In this document: piece by piece, positions 21,865 through 50,136 of the stretch
Numbering within the stretch: position 1 is the stretch's first letter
Layout of the letters: each line of letters begins with the position of its first letter
Assembly: GCF_945882965.1 (NCBI RefSeq)
Contig: NZ_CAMCWY010000001.1
Coordinates: 62,001 to 126,000 of the forward strand
Direction of reading: 5' to 3'
DNA from: Sphingorhabdus sp. EL138
GTDB taxonomy: Bacteria > Pseudomonadota > Alphaproteobacteria > Sphingomonadales > Sphingomonadaceae
DNA length: 64,000 bases
Notes under the pieces: model-generated
What the model was told of the DNA's origin: nothing
Seen by the model: only the letters and a program-made list of their open reading frames with translations
Database searches by the model: none
Translations under genes and position numbers: made by a program

Positions 21865-22995
21865 ATGACCGAAACCAAACAGCCCATCATTCAAATCCGC
21901 AACGTGTCCAAACGCTTTGGCAAGGTGACGGCGGTCGACAATGTCAGTCTTGATATTCGCGCAGGCGAATTCTTCGTTCTGCTTGGGCCCTCGGGCTGCG
22001 GCAAGACGACTTTGTTGCGGATGATCGCGGGGTTTGAATTGCCGACTGAGGGGCAGATCGTGATTGATGGACAGGATATGAGTCTTGTTCCGCCAAACAA
22101 GCGGCCCGTGAACATGGTGTTCCAAAGCTACGCCGTGTTTCCGCATATGAACGTGACGGATAATGTGGGCTACGGCCTGCGCATATCGGGCGTATCGAAA
22201 GGCGAGATTCGCGACCGTGTTTCCGAAGCGCTTGAACTGGTAAAACTCGGCGGCTTTGAAGACCGGATGCCCGACCAAATGTCAGGTGGGCAGCGGCAGC
22301 GGGTTGCGCTCGCACGCAGCTTGGTCATGCGGCCCAAGGTATTGTTGCTTGATGAGCCGCTCTCGGCGCTCGACGCGAAATTGCGCGCGCAAATGCAATT
22401 TGAACTGGCGGATTTGCAGAACAAGATTGGTATTACCTTCGTTACCGTCACCCATGATCAAGACGAGGCGCTGTCGATGGCAAGCCGCGTTGCGGTAATC
22501 AACAAAGGTGAAGTTGCACAGCTCGCGCCACCATCGGACCTTTACGAATATCCCGCCAATCGGTTCGTGGCGGACTTTGTGGGTTCGGTAAACATATTTG
22601 AAGGCACGCTGACGCTGGACGAACCCGATAAGGCTGCCGTTGATTGTCCGGGCCTTGGTAAGGTTTACCTGAACCACGGTGTTACAGGCCCCCATGGGGC
22701 AAATGTGTGGATCGCGCTTCGCCCTGAAAAAATTTACCTGCACGTTCCCGGCGAAGGCAAAGCCGTCCGCGCCGCTGCCCAAGACGCACCCGACGGCCAC
22801 AATCTCGCGCGCGGTACGATTAAGGGCATGAGCTATCTTGGCGATGTCACTTTATATGATATTCAACTTGAGGGCGGCCAAATCATCCGCGTCAGCCGCC
22901 CCAACCTCTCGCGCCATGACCAGGAAGACTTCACCTGGGATGACAAGGTCAGCATGCACTGGCGCGCCGACAGTCCTGTTGTTTTGTTGAGCTAG
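21865..22995 (+). CDS. potA: Polyamine ABC transporter ATPase PotA/PotG-like
   Basis: A 376-residue ATPase. Walker A is GPSGCGKTT (41-49), the Q-loop MVFQSYAVFPHM, the signature SGGQRQRVALAR, and Walker B VLLLDEPLSALD followed by the H-loop THDQDEA. The C-terminal third is a TOBE-type domain (IALRPEKIYLHVPGE onward). A TTG-started frame begins at 21814, but ATG 21865 gives the normal family start. It ends the potDBCA unit and meets the convergent FKBP gene after 4 nt. Confidence 0.94.
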   Translation: MTETKQPIIQIRNVSKRFGKVTAVDNVSLDIRAGEFFVLLGPSGCGKTTLLRMIAGFELPTEGQIVIDGQDMSLVPPNKRPVNMVFQSYAVFPHMNVTDNVGYGLRISGVSKGEIRDRVSEALELVKLGGFEDRMPDQMSGGQRQRVALARSLVMRPKVLLLDEPLSALDAKLRAQMQFELADLQNKIGITFVTVTHDQDEALSMASRVAVINKGEVAQLAPPSDLYEYPANRFVADFVGSVNIFEGTLTLDEPDKAAVDCPGLGKVYLNHGVTGPHGANVWIALRPEKIYLHVPGEGKAVRAAAQDAPDGHNLARGTIKGMSYLGDVTLYDIQLEGGQIIRVSRPNLSRHDQEDFTWDDKVSMHWRADSPVVLLS

Positions 22996-22999
22996 AGGG

Positions 23000-23692
23000 C
23001 TAGTTCTGTATTGTCTCCCTCGGCGCTGGCCTGAGGTCAATTAACGTGACGATGATATTGCTGTCTGGTGATCCGTCTAAGGTTTTAGGCATACAGAAAC
23101 GGTAAGTTGAACCTATCGAAATCATGTTCAGGCTTTCTCGAAAAATCGGCGATGCTTGGCTCAACGGGATCTTTTCCCATTCGCTTTTTTGCTGCACTAC
23201 GCCAGTCGAGGTGTCAAAGATGGTGAAGTCGACAAGCGCCATGTCGCCATCGGCTGGCTTTTTACCAGCGGCAGCTTTCAGGATTTTAAAGCCGAGGCCC
23301 GTCGTGGTGGATTGTGTGCAACTGCGTTCAGCGACCGGAATGACTGGTTTTGGTGGCGGGTTGATGAAGGACAGCAGGTCAACCTCAAACACCAAATCGG
23401 CATTGGGCGGAATTGGGCCAGTGCCAGCCGCGCCATAGCCGAGCACCGCAGGGATACAGAGGCGATAGCTGCCGCCGGCTTGCATCAGTTGCAGGCCTTG
23501 GGCAAAGCCGGGAATGACGCCGCCAACGGGGAATTGGGCACCTTGGCCGGAATCAAATTCGCTGCCGTCTGCTGTCAGCATGCCCTTGTAATTCACGGTG
23601 ACATTGGACTCGGCGATTGGCCGCTCGCCCTTGCCCGGCTTGATGACGGTATAGGACAGGCCCTCCGGTGTTTTGACAGCGCAGGTAAGCAC
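23000..23692 (-). CDS. FKBP-type peptidyl-prolyl isomerase, 5' end interrupted by an amber codon
   Basis: The open part encodes 230 residues: a complete FKBP domain (about 8-112; VTVNYKGMLTADGSEFDSG, FPVGGVIPGFAQGLQLMQAGG, IPAVLGYG, GPIPPNADLVFEVDLLS) and a second, degenerate copy. The only start in this part is GTG 23692, with no ribosome site and no export signal. Read upstream in the same frame, an ATG at 23809 begins a good signal peptide (MTSPTLKRALITAA, ending FAPA), then a TAG at 23729-23731, then AAAPVAAKPKPPVL. A CAG in place of TAG would restore a normal exported FKBP. The gene may be a recent pseudogene, or the base may be an assembly error. Confidence 0.85.
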   Translation of the reverse strand: MLTCAVKTPEGLSYTVIKPGKGERPIAESNVTVNYKGMLTADGSEFDSGQGAQFPVGGVIPGFAQGLQLMQAGGSYRLCIPAVLGYGAAGTGPIPPNADLVFEVDLLSFINPPPKPVIPVAERSCTQSTTTGLGFKILKAAAGKKPADGDMALVDFTIFDTSTGVVQQKSEWEKIPLSQASPIFRESLNMISIGSTYRFCMPKTLDGSPDSNIIVTLIDLRPAPRETIQN

Positions 23693-23850
23693 TGGCGGCT
23701 TTGGTTTTGCCGCGACGGGCGCGGCGGCCTACGCCGGTGCAAATTGCAGGAGCAGGGCGCGGGTGAGGGCTGCCGTGATTAACGCGCGCTTTAATGTTGG
23801 TGATGTCATGGTTGCCTTTGGTAAGGGTTGAACGGGCTTTGTCTAGGTAG

Positions 23851-23970
23851 AAGAAACCGTAGTGCTGAACCTCTCGAAGCACGCCTCACAATGTCGCGCT
23901 GCATCTGAGAGACGCCCTTCGACCTTCACCAGCGCCTTGCGCTGGTGGCTCAGGGCTGCGGTTTTTTATG
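23851..23970. repeat. Dispersed palindromic repeat, copy A (with extra hairpin)
   Basis: This stretch reads AACCGTAGTGCTGAACC, TCTCGAAGCACGCCTC, about 30 variable bases, CCCTTCGAC, an insert, then GGCTCAGGGCTGCGGTTT. The reverse complement of 59924-60012 has the same blocks in the same order. The two arms are imperfect inverted repeats. Copy A carries an extra perfect hairpin of 9 bp with a 3-nt loop at 23927-23947 (CACCAGCGC/GCGCTGGTG) where copy B has only AG. It fills the gap between the FKBP and transaminase genes. Confidence 0.7.
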
Positions 23971-23975
23971 CCCCC

Positions 23976-25367
23976 TTATCCAATCGCCCGCAATTTCGGC
24001 TCGGCCTCATCAAGCGACTTGTGGATAATCCCGACAAGCTCGTCAATTTGTGCAGGGGTGATGATCAATGGCGGGCACATGACGATGCTGTCGCGGATGC
24101 CGCGCACCATCAGGCCGTTGCGGATGCAGATGTCGCGCACCATTGGCCCTGCGGTGCCCTCTGCGCCGCCAAAGCGGGCGCCGGTTGCCTTGTCCGCCAC
24201 AATCTCGATTGCGCCAAGCAAGCCGATGGAGCGCGCCTCACCGACCAAAGGATGGTCGCGCAATGGCGCGAGCGCCTTTGCCAGATAGGGCCCGGTTTCA
24301 TTGCGGACCTTGTCAACTAGGGCTTCGCGCTCCAATATCTCGATATTGCGCAAGGCAACAGCCGACGCCACCGGATGCCCCGAATAGGTATAGCCATGGA
24401 CGAAATCGCCGCCGGTTTTCATCACCTTGATGATGTCCGCGCTGACCGCCACGGCAGAGATGGGCAGATAACCCGACGAAAGCCCCTTCGCCATGGCGAT
24501 GATGTCGGGCTGAATACCCATGGTTTCGTGGCCCCACATATTGCCAGTGCGGCCAAAGCCGCAAATGACCTCATCACAGACCAATAATATGCCATATTTG
24601 CGGCAAATTGCCTCAACCTGCGGCCAATAATTGGCGGGCGGGATGATGACGCCACCGGCACCTTGTACAGGCTCACCAATGAAGGCTGCGACGTTTTCAG
24701 GACCGACCTCTAATATCTTGTCTTCAATGGCTTGTGCGCATGCTGTGCCGAAATCCTCAGGCGTCATGTCGCGGCCTTCGTTGTAATAATAAGGCTGACG
24801 CACATGTTCGATGCCAGCCATCGGCAATATGCCCGGCGCGGGGAAGCCTTGGTCATGCATCGCCTTCATCCCGCCCATGCTGACGCCAGCTACGGTGGAA
24901 CCATGATAGGCATTGTGGCGGCTGATGATGATGGTGCGGCTGTGCTCGCCCTTTACCTGCCAATAATGGCGCACCATGCGCAATATGGTGTCATTGGCTT
25001 CGGAGCCGGAGCTGTTGAAAAATACATGCGGCAGACGTCCGCCCGTCAGGCTCGCAATCTTGTCGGCCAGCATGATGGCTGGCGCATTCGCGGTTTTGAA
25101 GAAGCTGTTATAATAAGGCAGCTCACGCATCTGGTCACGCGCGACGTCAGCCAATTCGTCGCGACCATAGCCGACATTGACGCACCACAGACCAGCCATG
25201 CCGTCCAAAATGCGGTTGCCTTCGCCATCGTGAATGTAGCAGCCTTCGGCATGGGTGATGATCCGGCTTCCGCCCAGATCTTCAATCTCTTGCCAGTCGG
25301 CTTGTGCGGGCAAATGGTGGGCGATGTCCAAACGGCGAAGTTCGGCGATGTCGTAATTGCGTGGCAT
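23976..25367 (-). CDS. spuC: Class III aminotransferase, putrescine-pyruvate type (SpuC-like)
   Basis: A 463-residue PLP-dependent omega-transaminase. It has the PLP-phosphate loop SSGSEAND (about 119-126), Asp265 in LLVCDEVICGFGRTG, and catalytic Lys294 in AMAKGLSSGY. YNSFFKTAN and GHPVASAVALRN match the putrescine/beta-alanine-pyruvate group, which transfers the amino group of putrescine to pyruvate giving 4-aminobutanal. Assignment to putrescine is supported by the potDBCA genes and a PuuD-like gene close by. A broader amine substrate range is possible. Confidence 0.85.
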   Translation of the reverse strand: MPRNYDIAELRRLDIAHHLPAQADWQEIEDLGGSRIITHAEGCYIHDGEGNRILDGMAGLWCVNVGYGRDELADVARDQMRELPYYNSFFKTANAPAIMLADKIASLTGGRLPHVFFNSSGSEANDTILRMVRHYWQVKGEHSRTIIISRHNAYHGSTVAGVSMGGMKAMHDQGFPAPGILPMAGIEHVRQPYYYNEGRDMTPEDFGTACAQAIEDKILEVGPENVAAFIGEPVQGAGGVIIPPANYWPQVEAICRKYGILLVCDEVICGFGRTGNMWGHETMGIQPDIIAMAKGLSSGYLPISAVAVSADIIKVMKTGGDFVHGYTYSGHPVASAVALRNIEILEREALVDKVRNETGPYLAKALAPLRDHPLVGEARSIGLLGAIEIVADKATGARFGGAEGTAGPMVRDICIRNGLMVRGIRDSIVMCPPLIITPAQIDELVGIIHKSLDEAEPKLRAIG

Positions 25368-37374: not shown

Positions 37375-37666
37375 GATGGCCTCCTCACTAAAAACCTGTT
37401 TCGCGGCGATTAGCGTGTATCGCTGCCCGCGTCCAAACGGTTATTGCTCTAAAAGCGGAATGGGCTGACATAATGCAGTCGCTAGTCACAGGGATATAAT
37501 CGTAACGCCCCAGATACGGCTCAGCTCCGGAAACCCGTGTAACTCAAAATATGTAAAAAACTATAGCCCGCAGACCACAGGCTAAGAGACTATTCAATCG
37601 AACAGTGCGCGAAAACGCGCGGGCGAGACCGCGCTAGCCTTAGCGTGTCTTACGTGCGGCCTGACG
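37375..37666. other. Intergenic stretch with no gene recognised
   Basis: This 292-nt gap lies between trmL and the EF-hand gene, both on the minus strand. It must hold the trmL promoter. GCGCGAAAACGCGC near 37608-37621 can form a short hairpin downstream of the EF-hand gene, but no T-tract follows it, so it is a weak terminator candidate. Reading frames here are shadows. Confidence 0.4.
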
Positions 37667-38173
37667 TTATTCAATAGAAATGCTGTCATCTTGATTGGCA
37701 TCTGCCTTAGTAAAGCGTGCGTCAATCGCAGCGCGGTACTCTGCTTGGGACACGGCCTTGTCCCGATTGGTGTCGGCGCGCGGGACCATGGCCATGCCGC
37801 CAAAACGGCCCCGTTGGCGGGCTTCACGCATGCTGGCTCCAATGCGTTCCATGCGCCGTTCACGCCGGTCTGCGCGTCGCTCGACACCAGCTTCATGGGC
37901 CGCCATGAACTCGCTTTGGCTAATGGCACCATTTTTGTCTGAGTCCATCATAACAAAGAGCTTTGCCATCATGGCGATCCGGTCGGCTGCGTTTAATGTG
38001 CCGTCGCCATTTACGTCTATCTTGGCAAAGCGCGCATCGGCCGCTGCCATGGCTTCTGCCTTGGTGATAATATGATTTCCGTCTGAAGCGGCTTTAACTG
38101 GTGCAGCATGAAGCGCCGCTGCGGAAGTAACAGACAGGAGCATGACGCCAGCATAGACTGAAAGTTTCTTCAT
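37667..38173 (-). CDS. Secreted EF-hand calcium-binding protein
   Basis: A 168-residue exported protein with a signal peptide (about 1-23). Four EF-hand loops are visible: DVNGDGTLNAAD (about 53-64), DSDKNGAISQSE, DTNRDKAVSQAE and DANQDDSISIE, the last running into the C-terminus. The middle section is Arg-rich (ERRADRRERRMER). Calcium binding in the periplasm is likely; the partner is unknown. Such EF-hand proteins are common in sphingomonads. Confidence 0.87.
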   Translation of the reverse strand: MKKLSVYAGVMLLSVTSAAALHAAPVKAASDGNHIITKAEAMAAADARFAKIDVNGDGTLNAADRIAMMAKLFVMMDSDKNGAISQSEFMAAHEAGVERRADRRERRMERIGASMREARQRGRFGGMAMVPRADTNRDKAVSQAEYRAAIDARFTKADANQDDSISIE

Positions 38174-43059: not shown

Positions 43060-43700
43060 TTACGGCTTACTGCGCAATTCCAGACGGTAACCGTAACCGA
43101 AAACCGTTGAAATCCGGAAGCCGTTTTCGGACCGCAAATCCAACTTCGCCCGCACCCTCGAAATATGCATGTCTAACGTCCGTGTCGCTAGCGTTGCCGT
43201 TGTCCGCCAAATGGTTTGCATAATATAATGACGCGACAAGGTCCGGTCTGTGTTTTTGAAAAACATTTCCGTCAAATCAAATTCCTTGGCGGTCAAAATG
43301 ACGGTCTGTTCATGGATTGTAACGCTCCGCTCAAGCCGGTTCATTTTGTAGGCGCCGTATATGACTTCAGTATCAAACGCCCCCCCGACCGCATTGCCGC
43401 GCAGCAAAGCGTTTATCCGTGCCGCATAACATTACGGCTTTCCCGCTTAGCAGACCGGCTCGCCATCATGATTACCGGTGGTCGGGTCGGCAAAGCCGTA
43501 TTCATCCATTCAAGCAGGGAAGTATCGTCCCCGGCGCGAATATTCCAATCCAAGATGACGAGGTCAAACACGTCCCGCGACAATATCTCTGTAAAATCAT
43601 TGCTGCTGGTGCAACCGACGGCAACATACCCCAGGTCTTCGACTATATGTTTAAGATAATCAACAACATCCAAACAATAGTCCGCAATAAACACTTTCAT
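43060..43700 (-). pseudogene. OmpR-family response regulator, split by an internal deletion
   Basis: The first frame (43700-43413) encodes 95 residues of a receiver domain: MKVFIADYCLD, phospho-acceptor Asp51 in VILDWNIR, and PPVIMMASRSAKRESR, then a stop. A second frame (up to about 43407, ending 43060) carries INALLRGN, a complete winged helix (TVILTAKEFDLTEMFF, RTLDMHISRVRAKL) and FGYGYRLE. Joined, they lack about 20-25 residues that normally hold the conserved Lys and last receiver helix, and the frame changes at that point. The output domain is intact and could still be made separately. No kinase gene is adjacent. Confidence 0.75.
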
Positions 43701-43855
43701 CCTAATACCACCCCTCAGCGGCCCGCCGACATCACAGCGGTAAAATATACCTAACGATATATTACTTCGTTACTAGATAGCGCTGCAATTTTTACGTATG
43801 ATTACAAAAGTTTACAAAAATTCTGGAAATGATAAGCTTGCATTATCTGCATAAA

Positions 43856-43992: not shown

Positions 43993-45081
43993 TTAATCAA
44001 TACGCTGCACCCAGCCATGGGCATCTGCGGCAACTCCGCGTTGGATATCCACAAGTTGTGAACGAATTTGCTGAGTCATCTGCCCCGGACCGCCTGCGCC
44101 GATGGTAAAGCTGCCCTTCGCAGACTGCACTTTTCCAACCGGCGTCACGACTGCAGCCGTTCCGCAGGCAAAGGTTTCGACCAAGCGCCCCGATTCTGCA
44201 TCGGCCCGCCACTGGTCGATGGCGTAGCGCTCCTCACGCACGTTCAACCCTTGCGCACGCGCCAAAGTTAGCACGGAATCGCGGGTGATGCCTTCCAATA
44301 TTGTGCCGTCGGCGGGCGGCGTGATGATCGACCCGTCATCGAACAGGAAAAATAGGTTCATGCCGCCCAGTTCTTCGACCCAGCGATGTTCGGCTGCGTC
44401 GAGAAATACGACCTGGTCGCAACCCTGTTTGATCGCTTCGGACTGCGCCACAAGGCTGGCGGCATAGTTACCACCACATTTCGCCGCGCCCGTGCCGCCG
44501 GGTGCCGCGCGGGTATAATGTTCGGACACCCAGATCGAAATTGCTGGCGCGCCGCTTTTGAAATAATTGCCGGCCGCAGACGCAATGACCATGAACAGAT
44601 ATTCTGCAGATGGCTTCACGCCCAGAAACACTTCGCTCGCGATCATGAATGGGCGCAGATAAATAGAGCCGCCATCAACAGGTGGAAACCAGTCCTTATC
44701 GACATCAACCAATTGCTTGCACGCTTGCAGGAACATCTCTTCAGGCAATTGGGGCATTGCCAAGCGCTTTGCCGAGCGTTGAAAACGGCGGGCATTTTGT
44801 TCGGGACGGAACAAGGCCATTCCGCCGTCGGCAAGGCGATAGGCCTTTAGCCCTTCAAAAATCTCTTGCGCATAATGCAAAACGGCCGTCGCAGGGTCGA
44901 GCGATAGGGGCGCGCGTGGCCCGACCTTTGCGCCATACCAGCCTTTGTCGTCCGAATACCGAATCGTCACCATATGGTCGGTGAAAACTCGTCCAAAACC
45001 GGGATCGACCAGCCGCGCCGTGCGTTCGCTGGAATCGACCGGATTAGGGTTTGCTTCAAAAGGAAATGCGCCAGCGTTCAT
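43993..45081 (-). CDS. ilvE: Branched-chain amino-acid aminotransferase
   Basis: About 362 residues; a fold-type IV PLP enzyme making Leu, Ile and Val from their 2-oxoacids. ATAVLHYAQEIFEGLKAYR, IYLRPFMIASEVFLGVKPS, the PLP Lys in GAAKCGGNYAAS and EELGGMNLFF are characteristic of the long BCAT-II form. The ATG at 45081 with GAGA 6 nt upstream is preferred to 45093. It diverges from the MarR gene across 60 nt. Confidence 0.94.
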   Translation of the reverse strand: MNAGAFPFEANPNPVDSSERTARLVDPGFGRVFTDHMVTIRYSDDKGWYGAKVGPRAPLSLDPATAVLHYAQEIFEGLKAYRLADGGMALFRPEQNARRFQRSAKRLAMPQLPEEMFLQACKQLVDVDKDWFPPVDGGSIYLRPFMIASEVFLGVKPSAEYLFMVIASAAGNYFKSGAPAISIWVSEHYTRAAPGGTGAAKCGGNYAASLVAQSEAIKQGCDQVVFLDAAEHRWVEELGGMNLFFLFDDGSIITPPADGTILEGITRDSVLTLARAQGLNVREERYAIDQWRADAESGRLVETFACGTAAVVTPVGKVQSAKGSFTIGAGGPGQMTQQIRSQLVDIQRGVAADAHGWVQRID

Positions 45082-49331: not shown

Positions 49332-49973
49332 CTAAATCAGCCGGGAACTGCGCATGCTGCTGAAACCGTTTTTGCCAATGATGATGTGATCGTGCACAGC
49401 TAATCCGAACTTCTTCCCCGCATCGGCAATGTCGCGCGTCATCGCGATGTCTTGCCGGCTGGGGGAGCTGTCCCCGCTGGGATGGTTGTGGACAAGAATA
49501 ATCGCTGCCGCGCCAAGGTCCATCGCGCGACGGATGACTTCGCGGGTGTAAATGGCGGCTTGGTCGATGGAACCCTCGCTCGCCACCTCATCACGGATCA
49601 GCATGTTTTTGCTGTTAAGATATAGCGTGCGCACGCGCTCAATCGTCAGATGCGCCATGTCGGCGCGCAGATAATCCAGCAATGATTGCCAAGACGACAG
49701 TATCGGCAGTTCGCGCACGGGTTCGCTGAGCAGGCGAAGCGCCGCGACTTGAACTATCTTCAACGCCGCAACGCTGGTTTCGCCCATCCATTTTTCTTGT
49801 AAAATACTGTCGGCGTCTGCGGTCAGCAAGGCCGATAGGCTGCCGTAACGGTGAATCAAATCCTTCGCGATCTGCTTGGTATCTCGGCGCGGAATGGCGA
49901 GCGCGAGGAGATACTCGATCAATTCATGATCGTGAAGGCTTTCGCCATTCTTCTCCAACAAACGCTTACGCAA
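49332..49973 (-). CDS. radC: RadC-family JAB-domain protein, 5' end interrupted
   Basis: The open part encodes 213 residues: LHDHELIEYLLALAIPRRDTKQIAKDLIHRYGS (N-terminal UPF0758 helices) and a JAB/MPN domain with the metal motif VHNHPSGDSSPSRQD. The role of RadC is unsettled. The only start in this frame is TTG 49973, which cuts a conserved helix. Upstream in the same frame lies ATG at 50015, then GAT AAG ACG, a TAA at 50001-50003, then codons for HHGTGHRARLRKRLLEKNG, which matches the normal RadC N-terminus. A CAA in place of TAA would restore it. Confidence 0.82.
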   Translation of the reverse strand: MRKRLLEKNGESLHDHELIEYLLALAIPRRDTKQIAKDLIHRYGSLSALLTADADSILQEKWMGETSVAALKIVQVAALRLLSEPVRELPILSSWQSLLDYLRADMAHLTIERVRTLYLNSKNMLIRDEVASEGSIDQAAIYTREVIRRAMDLGAAAIILVHNHPSGDSSPSRQDIAMTRDIADAGKKFGLAVHDHIIIGKNGFSSMRSSRLI

Positions 49974-50136
49974 ACGCGCGCGGTGGCCCGTGCCATGATG
50001 TTACGTCTTATCCATTCTATCTGTAATCAGTCTATCCTGCTGTGATATTGTTCTTTTCTGTGATTTTTGCGTCGGGCGCAAGTCGCATCATGCAAATGGC
50101 GTTGCAACAGGACGGCCTTTCCCGCATTTGCGTATT

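Follow-up and report, generated by a model that had tools for sequence, protein, structure and literature searches.

The question raised by this locus is how to read a stop codon that lies in frame between a putative signal peptide and an otherwise intact FKBP-type peptidyl-prolyl isomerase: as a recent loss of the gene, as a codon that is read through, as the mark of a protein that is no longer exported, or as a wrong base in the assembly. The window, i.e., the whole stretch of 64,000 nucleotides of Sphingorhabdus sp. EL138 that was analysed, contains on its minus strand a frame that begins at ATG 23809 and reads MTSPTLKRALITAALTRALLLQFAPA, followed by TAG (23729-23731, minus strand) and then by AAAPVAAKPKPPVLTC and so on, remaining open onward to a terminal TAG at 23000-23002 (minus strand). 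The frame has 269 codons in all and the internal TAG follows the first 26, so that most of the product is removed. Those 26 codons, from the ATG to the codon preceding the TAG (23732-23809, minus strand), are homologous to the leaders found in all 29 orthologues that were inspected, and because of this homology the split frame is more than a product of chance. The open frame past the TAG (23003-23728, minus strand) encodes 242 amino acids, in which translation and domain comparison revealed two FKBP-like domains. Translation of the frame, Pfam and the homologous leaders (29 of 29) confirmed the arrangement described in the original prediction, with a signal-peptide frame at ATG 23809, the TAG and an intact FKBP domain beyond it.

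The state of the same gene in related genomes was studied in a search of 45 genomes of the genus, the one analysed here included. Some match was found in 43 of them, with long matches in 34 other genomes, and in none of these 34 did the matched part contain a stop codon; the nearest named relatives of the gene are Sphingorhabdus and Sphingomonadales records, and Sphingorhabdus wooponensis and S. rigui, which are in culture, both carry it. The leader was inspected at 29 loci, which came from the genomes with long matches other than G006, G009, G018, G019 and G025; each of the 29 has an ATG in frame and reads through the leader without a stop (the ATG taken was the one nearest to the expected place, which for L026-L028 is probably one too far upstream). 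These open frames argue that the leader is real in the relatives, and a start downstream of the stop position lacking a signal peptide was seen in none of the 29, so the comparison of N-termini leaves the proposed reading unrefuted. At the column of the TAG the orthologues carry CAG (6), CAA (1), CAT (8), CAC (2) and TCA (3), together with CCA, TAC, TTC, ATT, CGC and GCA once each and three gaps, which amounts to 7 Gln, 10 His, 9 other residues and no stop among the 29. Many residues are therefore tolerated at this position, and the seven Gln codons make an origin of the stop from a Gln codon, as had been proposed, plausible.

A predicted Sec-type leader with an A-x-A motif can be seen in the alignment of the orthologues. 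By the A-x-A rule, signal peptides carry Ala at positions -3 and -1 of the cleavage site. The relatives read A-P-A-Q/H-A-A-A around the column, the flanking Ala residues being kept in 25/29 and 26/29 of them, and the lost residue would fit better at -2 of such a site, with the flanking Ala residues at -3 and -1, than at +1. The earlier suggestion of a Gln directly after APA, on the far side of the cut, should thus be modified.

The protein encoded past the TAG was also characterised. An FKBP_C domain (Pfam PF00254) occupies residues 37-119, counted after the TAG, of the 242 amino acids (23372-23620, minus strand), with an E-value of 2e-22 and a score of 79.7 bits (cut-off 21.1). The second half repeats the first in degenerate form (23024-23326, minus strand, borders approximate), without a Pfam match of its own and recognised by blastp (20/82 identical residues), hhalign (probability 98%) and Foldseek, which makes the protein a bacterial two-domain FKBP. 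In an alignment of 24 sequences (the window protein and 23 orthologues) four Cys residues are invariant, two per half, so that the degenerate domain keeps its own pair. Taken together with the leader, this cysteine pattern suggests that the protein is periplasmic. An AlphaFold2 model of the protein had a mean pLDDT of 87.6 and a pTM of 0.62.

FkpA is an exported protein, and both FkpA and Mip carry an N-terminal dimerisation part. The first domain of the model aligns with these FkpA/Mip-type bacterial FKBPs (PDB 1q6h, 1q6u, 1fd9, 7dek; 44-46% identity, rmsd 1.1-1.2 Å by Foldseek), and the orthologues of the window gene likewise have a leader, as exported FkpA does. By contrast, the window protein has no room for a dimerisation part, as its FKBP domain lies close behind the leader, and the second, degenerate FKBP-like domain follows the first instead. 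Across both halves the model could be aligned with the FK1-FK2 pair of FKBP51/FKBP52 (PDB 4lax, 3o5d), and the best 13 Foldseek matches were multi-domain FKBPs (241-253 columns, E 1.2e-14 to 1.2e-12). However, the whole-length TM-score against the eukaryotic FKBP51/FKBP52 was only 0.38-0.43, with 20-23% identity, indicating that the domain arrangement differs or is unsettled in a model with this pTM (0.62).

A stop at the end of a leader could mean that export has been abandoned, with the signal-peptide region left as a dead leader and a cytosolic protein made from a start further down. The first ATG, GTG or TTG in frame past the TAG is a GTG at 23690-23692 (minus strand), 12 codons downstream, whose product would be leaderless, and the body of the protein is constrained; both speak for this reading. 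Against it, over the 24 codons of the signal peptide that could be compared, the window shows dN 0.202 and dS 0.584, compared with 0.232 and 0.687 among the relatives, so that, odd codons aside, this short leader has drifted no more than theirs; an old switch to a cytosolic protein was rejected on these grounds. Pairing with the anti-Shine-Dalgarno core is also weaker before the GTG (-1.7 kcal/mol) than before ATG 23809 (-3.4 kcal/mol), in a test of little weight given that the starts of 42 window genes span -11.5 to 1.3 kcal/mol, and four invariant Cys residues, two in each half, are what would be expected of a protein of the oxidising periplasm. We consider a cytosolic product from this GTG highly improbable.

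Alternatively, the TAG could be read through, by a suppressor tRNA or by leaky termination, so that some protein would still be exported. The retention of start codon, leader and isomerase speaks for this, as does a column that accepts many residues in the orthologues. However, none of the 39 tRNAs found in the genome, all of them named by ARAGORN, has a CUA anticodon (the list is incomplete, as tRNAs for Ala and Ile are absent from it), RF1 (prfA) is present with a score above the cut-off, and no orthologue has a stop at this column. Furthermore, TAG is the terminal stop of 12/65 and 11/65 matched frames of the window compared with two relatives, the FKBP gene among them; the two sets overlap and include some spurious frames. 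One of the genes that end in TAG is the convergent neighbour, an ABC-transporter-ATPase-like gene so named from its sequence (21865-22995, plus strand), which has the same end in its orthologues of G044 and G040. A general recoding of TAG was rejected in view of these ordinary stops and of RF1, a suppressor tRNA was sought and not found among the 39, and because of the three results together suppression of the TAG is unsupported. The original prediction had left open a very recent loss, a suppressor and a wrong base; the first and the last of these still stand, and the suppressor is unsupported. Readthrough of any kind has in our opinion very little chance of being the explanation, and we would give as little credit to the idea of the UAG as a leaky gate, at which low or conditional readthrough would let termination efficiency set the level of periplasmic isomerase. 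Other internal TAGs of the window were discarded as lesions: the one at 44905 falls ahead of where a plus-strand gene probably starts and within a conserved minus-strand gene, and the others, as judged from the table of frames, sit before the start codon that the second relative uses or in frames antisense to better-kept genes.

Constraint was also measured on the codons behind the stop. Over 236 mature codons, the window compared with seven near relatives gave a mean dN of 0.088 and a mean dS of 0.669 (ratio 0.132), and the same comparison among the seven relatives gave 0.083 and 0.593 (ratio 0.140). Measured against 13 outgroup orthologues, the excess of amino-acid changes in the window over the mean of the seven was 1.0 (bootstrap 95% -5.0 to 7.2), whereas a rough simulation put the expected excess at about 7 if 5% of the tip had been unconstrained, at about 14 for 10% and at about 102 for the whole tip. 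On a fixed tree, in which the node that unites the near relatives without the window is weakly supported (40), the window tip measures 0.0612 at codon positions 1+2 and 0.2926 at position 3. The resulting ratio of 0.209 compares with 0.208-0.552 in the seven near relatives and with 0.068-0.389 in the 13 distant ones, and because most tips of the latter fall below the window value, a slight relaxation of constraint on the window tip is possible. Overall, with constraint past the TAG unchanged by dN/dS and by amino-acid excess, any loss would be very young and confined to roughly the final 5% of the branch. The claim that the downstream codons are fully conserved holds for the 236 comparable codons and fails at the very end of the gene, where a deletion of 1 nt relative to the relatives alters the final residues and shifts the stop.

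This deletion is one of two further differences that the original prediction had missed. The gene has one base fewer at its 3' end than its close relatives, the old stop is altered, and the C-terminal codons outside the frame of the relatives (23003-23020, minus strand) give the protein the end RETIQN before the TAG at 23000-23002, two or three codons longer than in the close relatives. The deletion may be harmless, because the tail varies among the relatives and the G021 protein ends four residues earlier, directly after RPAP. The second difference lies in the hydrophobic core of the leader, where the gene has an Arg codon (23759-23761, minus strand); among the 29 relatives this position is Pro in 20 and Ser, Ala, Thr or Met in the rest, and never Arg. 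In addition, the stretch around start and leader (23718-23867, minus strand) is unusually close to L011, with 91 identical positions in each of two overlapping 100-nt windows, and the leader dS against L011 is 0.152 compared with 0.633 for the mature part; this closeness perhaps comes from recombination.

The most serious rival is a wrong base, from a consensus error or a mixture of strains, in a gene that would be intact in the organism. Unbroken constraint past the TAG is predicted equally by such an error. The genome is a draft (2.36 Mb in 38 contigs, completeness 99.85, contamination 2.14%), and the 1-nt deletion in the FKBP gene matches a noisy consensus, as do stops in other genes of the window, three of which look damaged in comparison with two relatives. 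A response-regulator gene (43078-43718, minus strand) lacks 51 nt and 1 nt relative to G044 and G040, and its frame is broken. A RadC-type gene (49338-50030, minus strand) has a TAA at 50001-50003, a few codons past its likely start. In the seven nearest relatives, to which its body is 97-98% identical, the frames are open at this point and reach further upstream; initiation at a downstream TTG might restore the gene, and the radC match in G011 is also split, with a TAA inside. Finally, an EF-hand gene (37643-38173, minus strand) has a stop at 37669, 9 codons before the end shared by both relatives compared. This set of damaged genes fits ongoing gene decay; its point changes could also be consensus errors, which the 52-nt loss hardly could. 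The 51 nt and 1 nt missing from the response regulator are indeed unlike a base-calling pattern, the Arg codon in the FKBP leader would require a second, different error, and in the two genes flanking the FKBP gene positions 1+2 have not gathered extra changes on the window tip, although this is a weak test with little power. We therefore regard a wrong base as unlikely, at something more than one chance in five, and well ahead of readthrough or a cytosolic product.

How often the gene is lost in the genus was examined through its surroundings. The upstream neighbour, an aminotransferase-like gene (23976-25367, minus strand; named from a reading of its sequence), is intact and adjoins the FKBP gene in relatives as well. 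A close orthologue of it (at least 86%) is present in 36 genomes including the one analysed here, and in 32 of these the FKBP gene adjoins it on the contig. In the remaining four, the FKBP gene lies elsewhere (G019, G025) or the contig ends within it (G021, G022), with the last 22 FKBP residues at the start of a contig in G021 and a weak match of 12 residues at a contig edge in G022 (E 0.019). A TAG inside the G021 match proved to be that gene's own end and was dropped as a lesion. No long FKBP match was found in 10 of the 45 genomes (own included), of which two are G021 and G022, and the other eight, being without a close orthologue of the aminotransferase too, say nothing about loss of the FKBP gene alone. 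The idea that the genus loses the gene frequently was rejected, given that all 36 aminotransferase-bearing genomes have it or a fragment of it truncated at a contig end (weak in G022); the FKBP gene is well kept and not often lost.

Between the two genes, a hairpin-forming stretch identified by sequence similarity and folding (23838-23960, minus strand) resembles dispersed sequences of genomes of the genus; a segment of 141 nt folded at -58 kcal/mol (z -3.34). The spacing between the FKBP gene and the upstream gene is 166 nt in the window and 80 nt in L011, where the hairpin stretch is absent from the gap. Several relatives have repeat-like hairpins in this gap too, and for this reason nothing was drawn from it on a promoter effect.

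Altogether, we favour, with a probability of about 0.7, a fresh nonsense pseudogene of an exported two-domain FKBP, as a very young allele. The gene has an in-frame stop, its orthologues are intact, and what remains of it shows no acceleration. Against a fresh loss it counts that the gene is a well-kept one, and that one fresh lesion would need neither the Arg codon nor the C-terminal deletion. The ancestral gene would have encoded an exported, predicted periplasmic, two-domain FKBP-type peptidyl-prolyl isomerase, in which a point change in the sequenced population would have created the TAG near the end of the signal peptide. Ribosomes would initiate at ATG 23809, add 26 residues and be terminated by RF1, so that the isomerase would be neither made nor exported, and the loss would be so recent that the remainder of the gene has yet to drift. 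Two more FKBP_C matches exist in the genome, at C14:501, within a 506-codon frame, and at C3:8089, an FKBP gene for a protein of 207 amino acids with an N-terminal hydrophobic stretch. The product of the latter could stand in for the lost isomerase, and other isomerases such as this one may cover for the loss. The preferred reading thus presumes that the base is real, that the product is abolished and that other isomerases cover for it.

None of the literature matches listed dealt with the window FKBP gene, which is a statement about those matches and claims no absence from print. A comparison is offered by Salmonella, for which Kuo and Ochman (2010, PMC2916853) report that 346 of 378 pseudogenes had a single lesion, a premature stop in 131 of the 346, and that most were strain-specific with little or no acceleration, so that the usual pseudogene there is young, with one lesion and no acceleration. 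The FKBP gene is like those described there (PMC2916853) in having a single premature stop that only one of the compared genomes carries, and no acceleration. It differs from that set (PMC2916853) in that the comparison made here used one genome per species and in the second small lesion at the C-terminus.

There is no sign of a new decoding mechanism at this locus, and a fresh loss or a wrong base would either way be ordinary. If real, the stop would mark the very recent disappearance of a folding helper, probably periplasmic, that is kept by the relatives of the lineage and lying near other damaged genes, and it would provide a small case for the first stage of gene loss.
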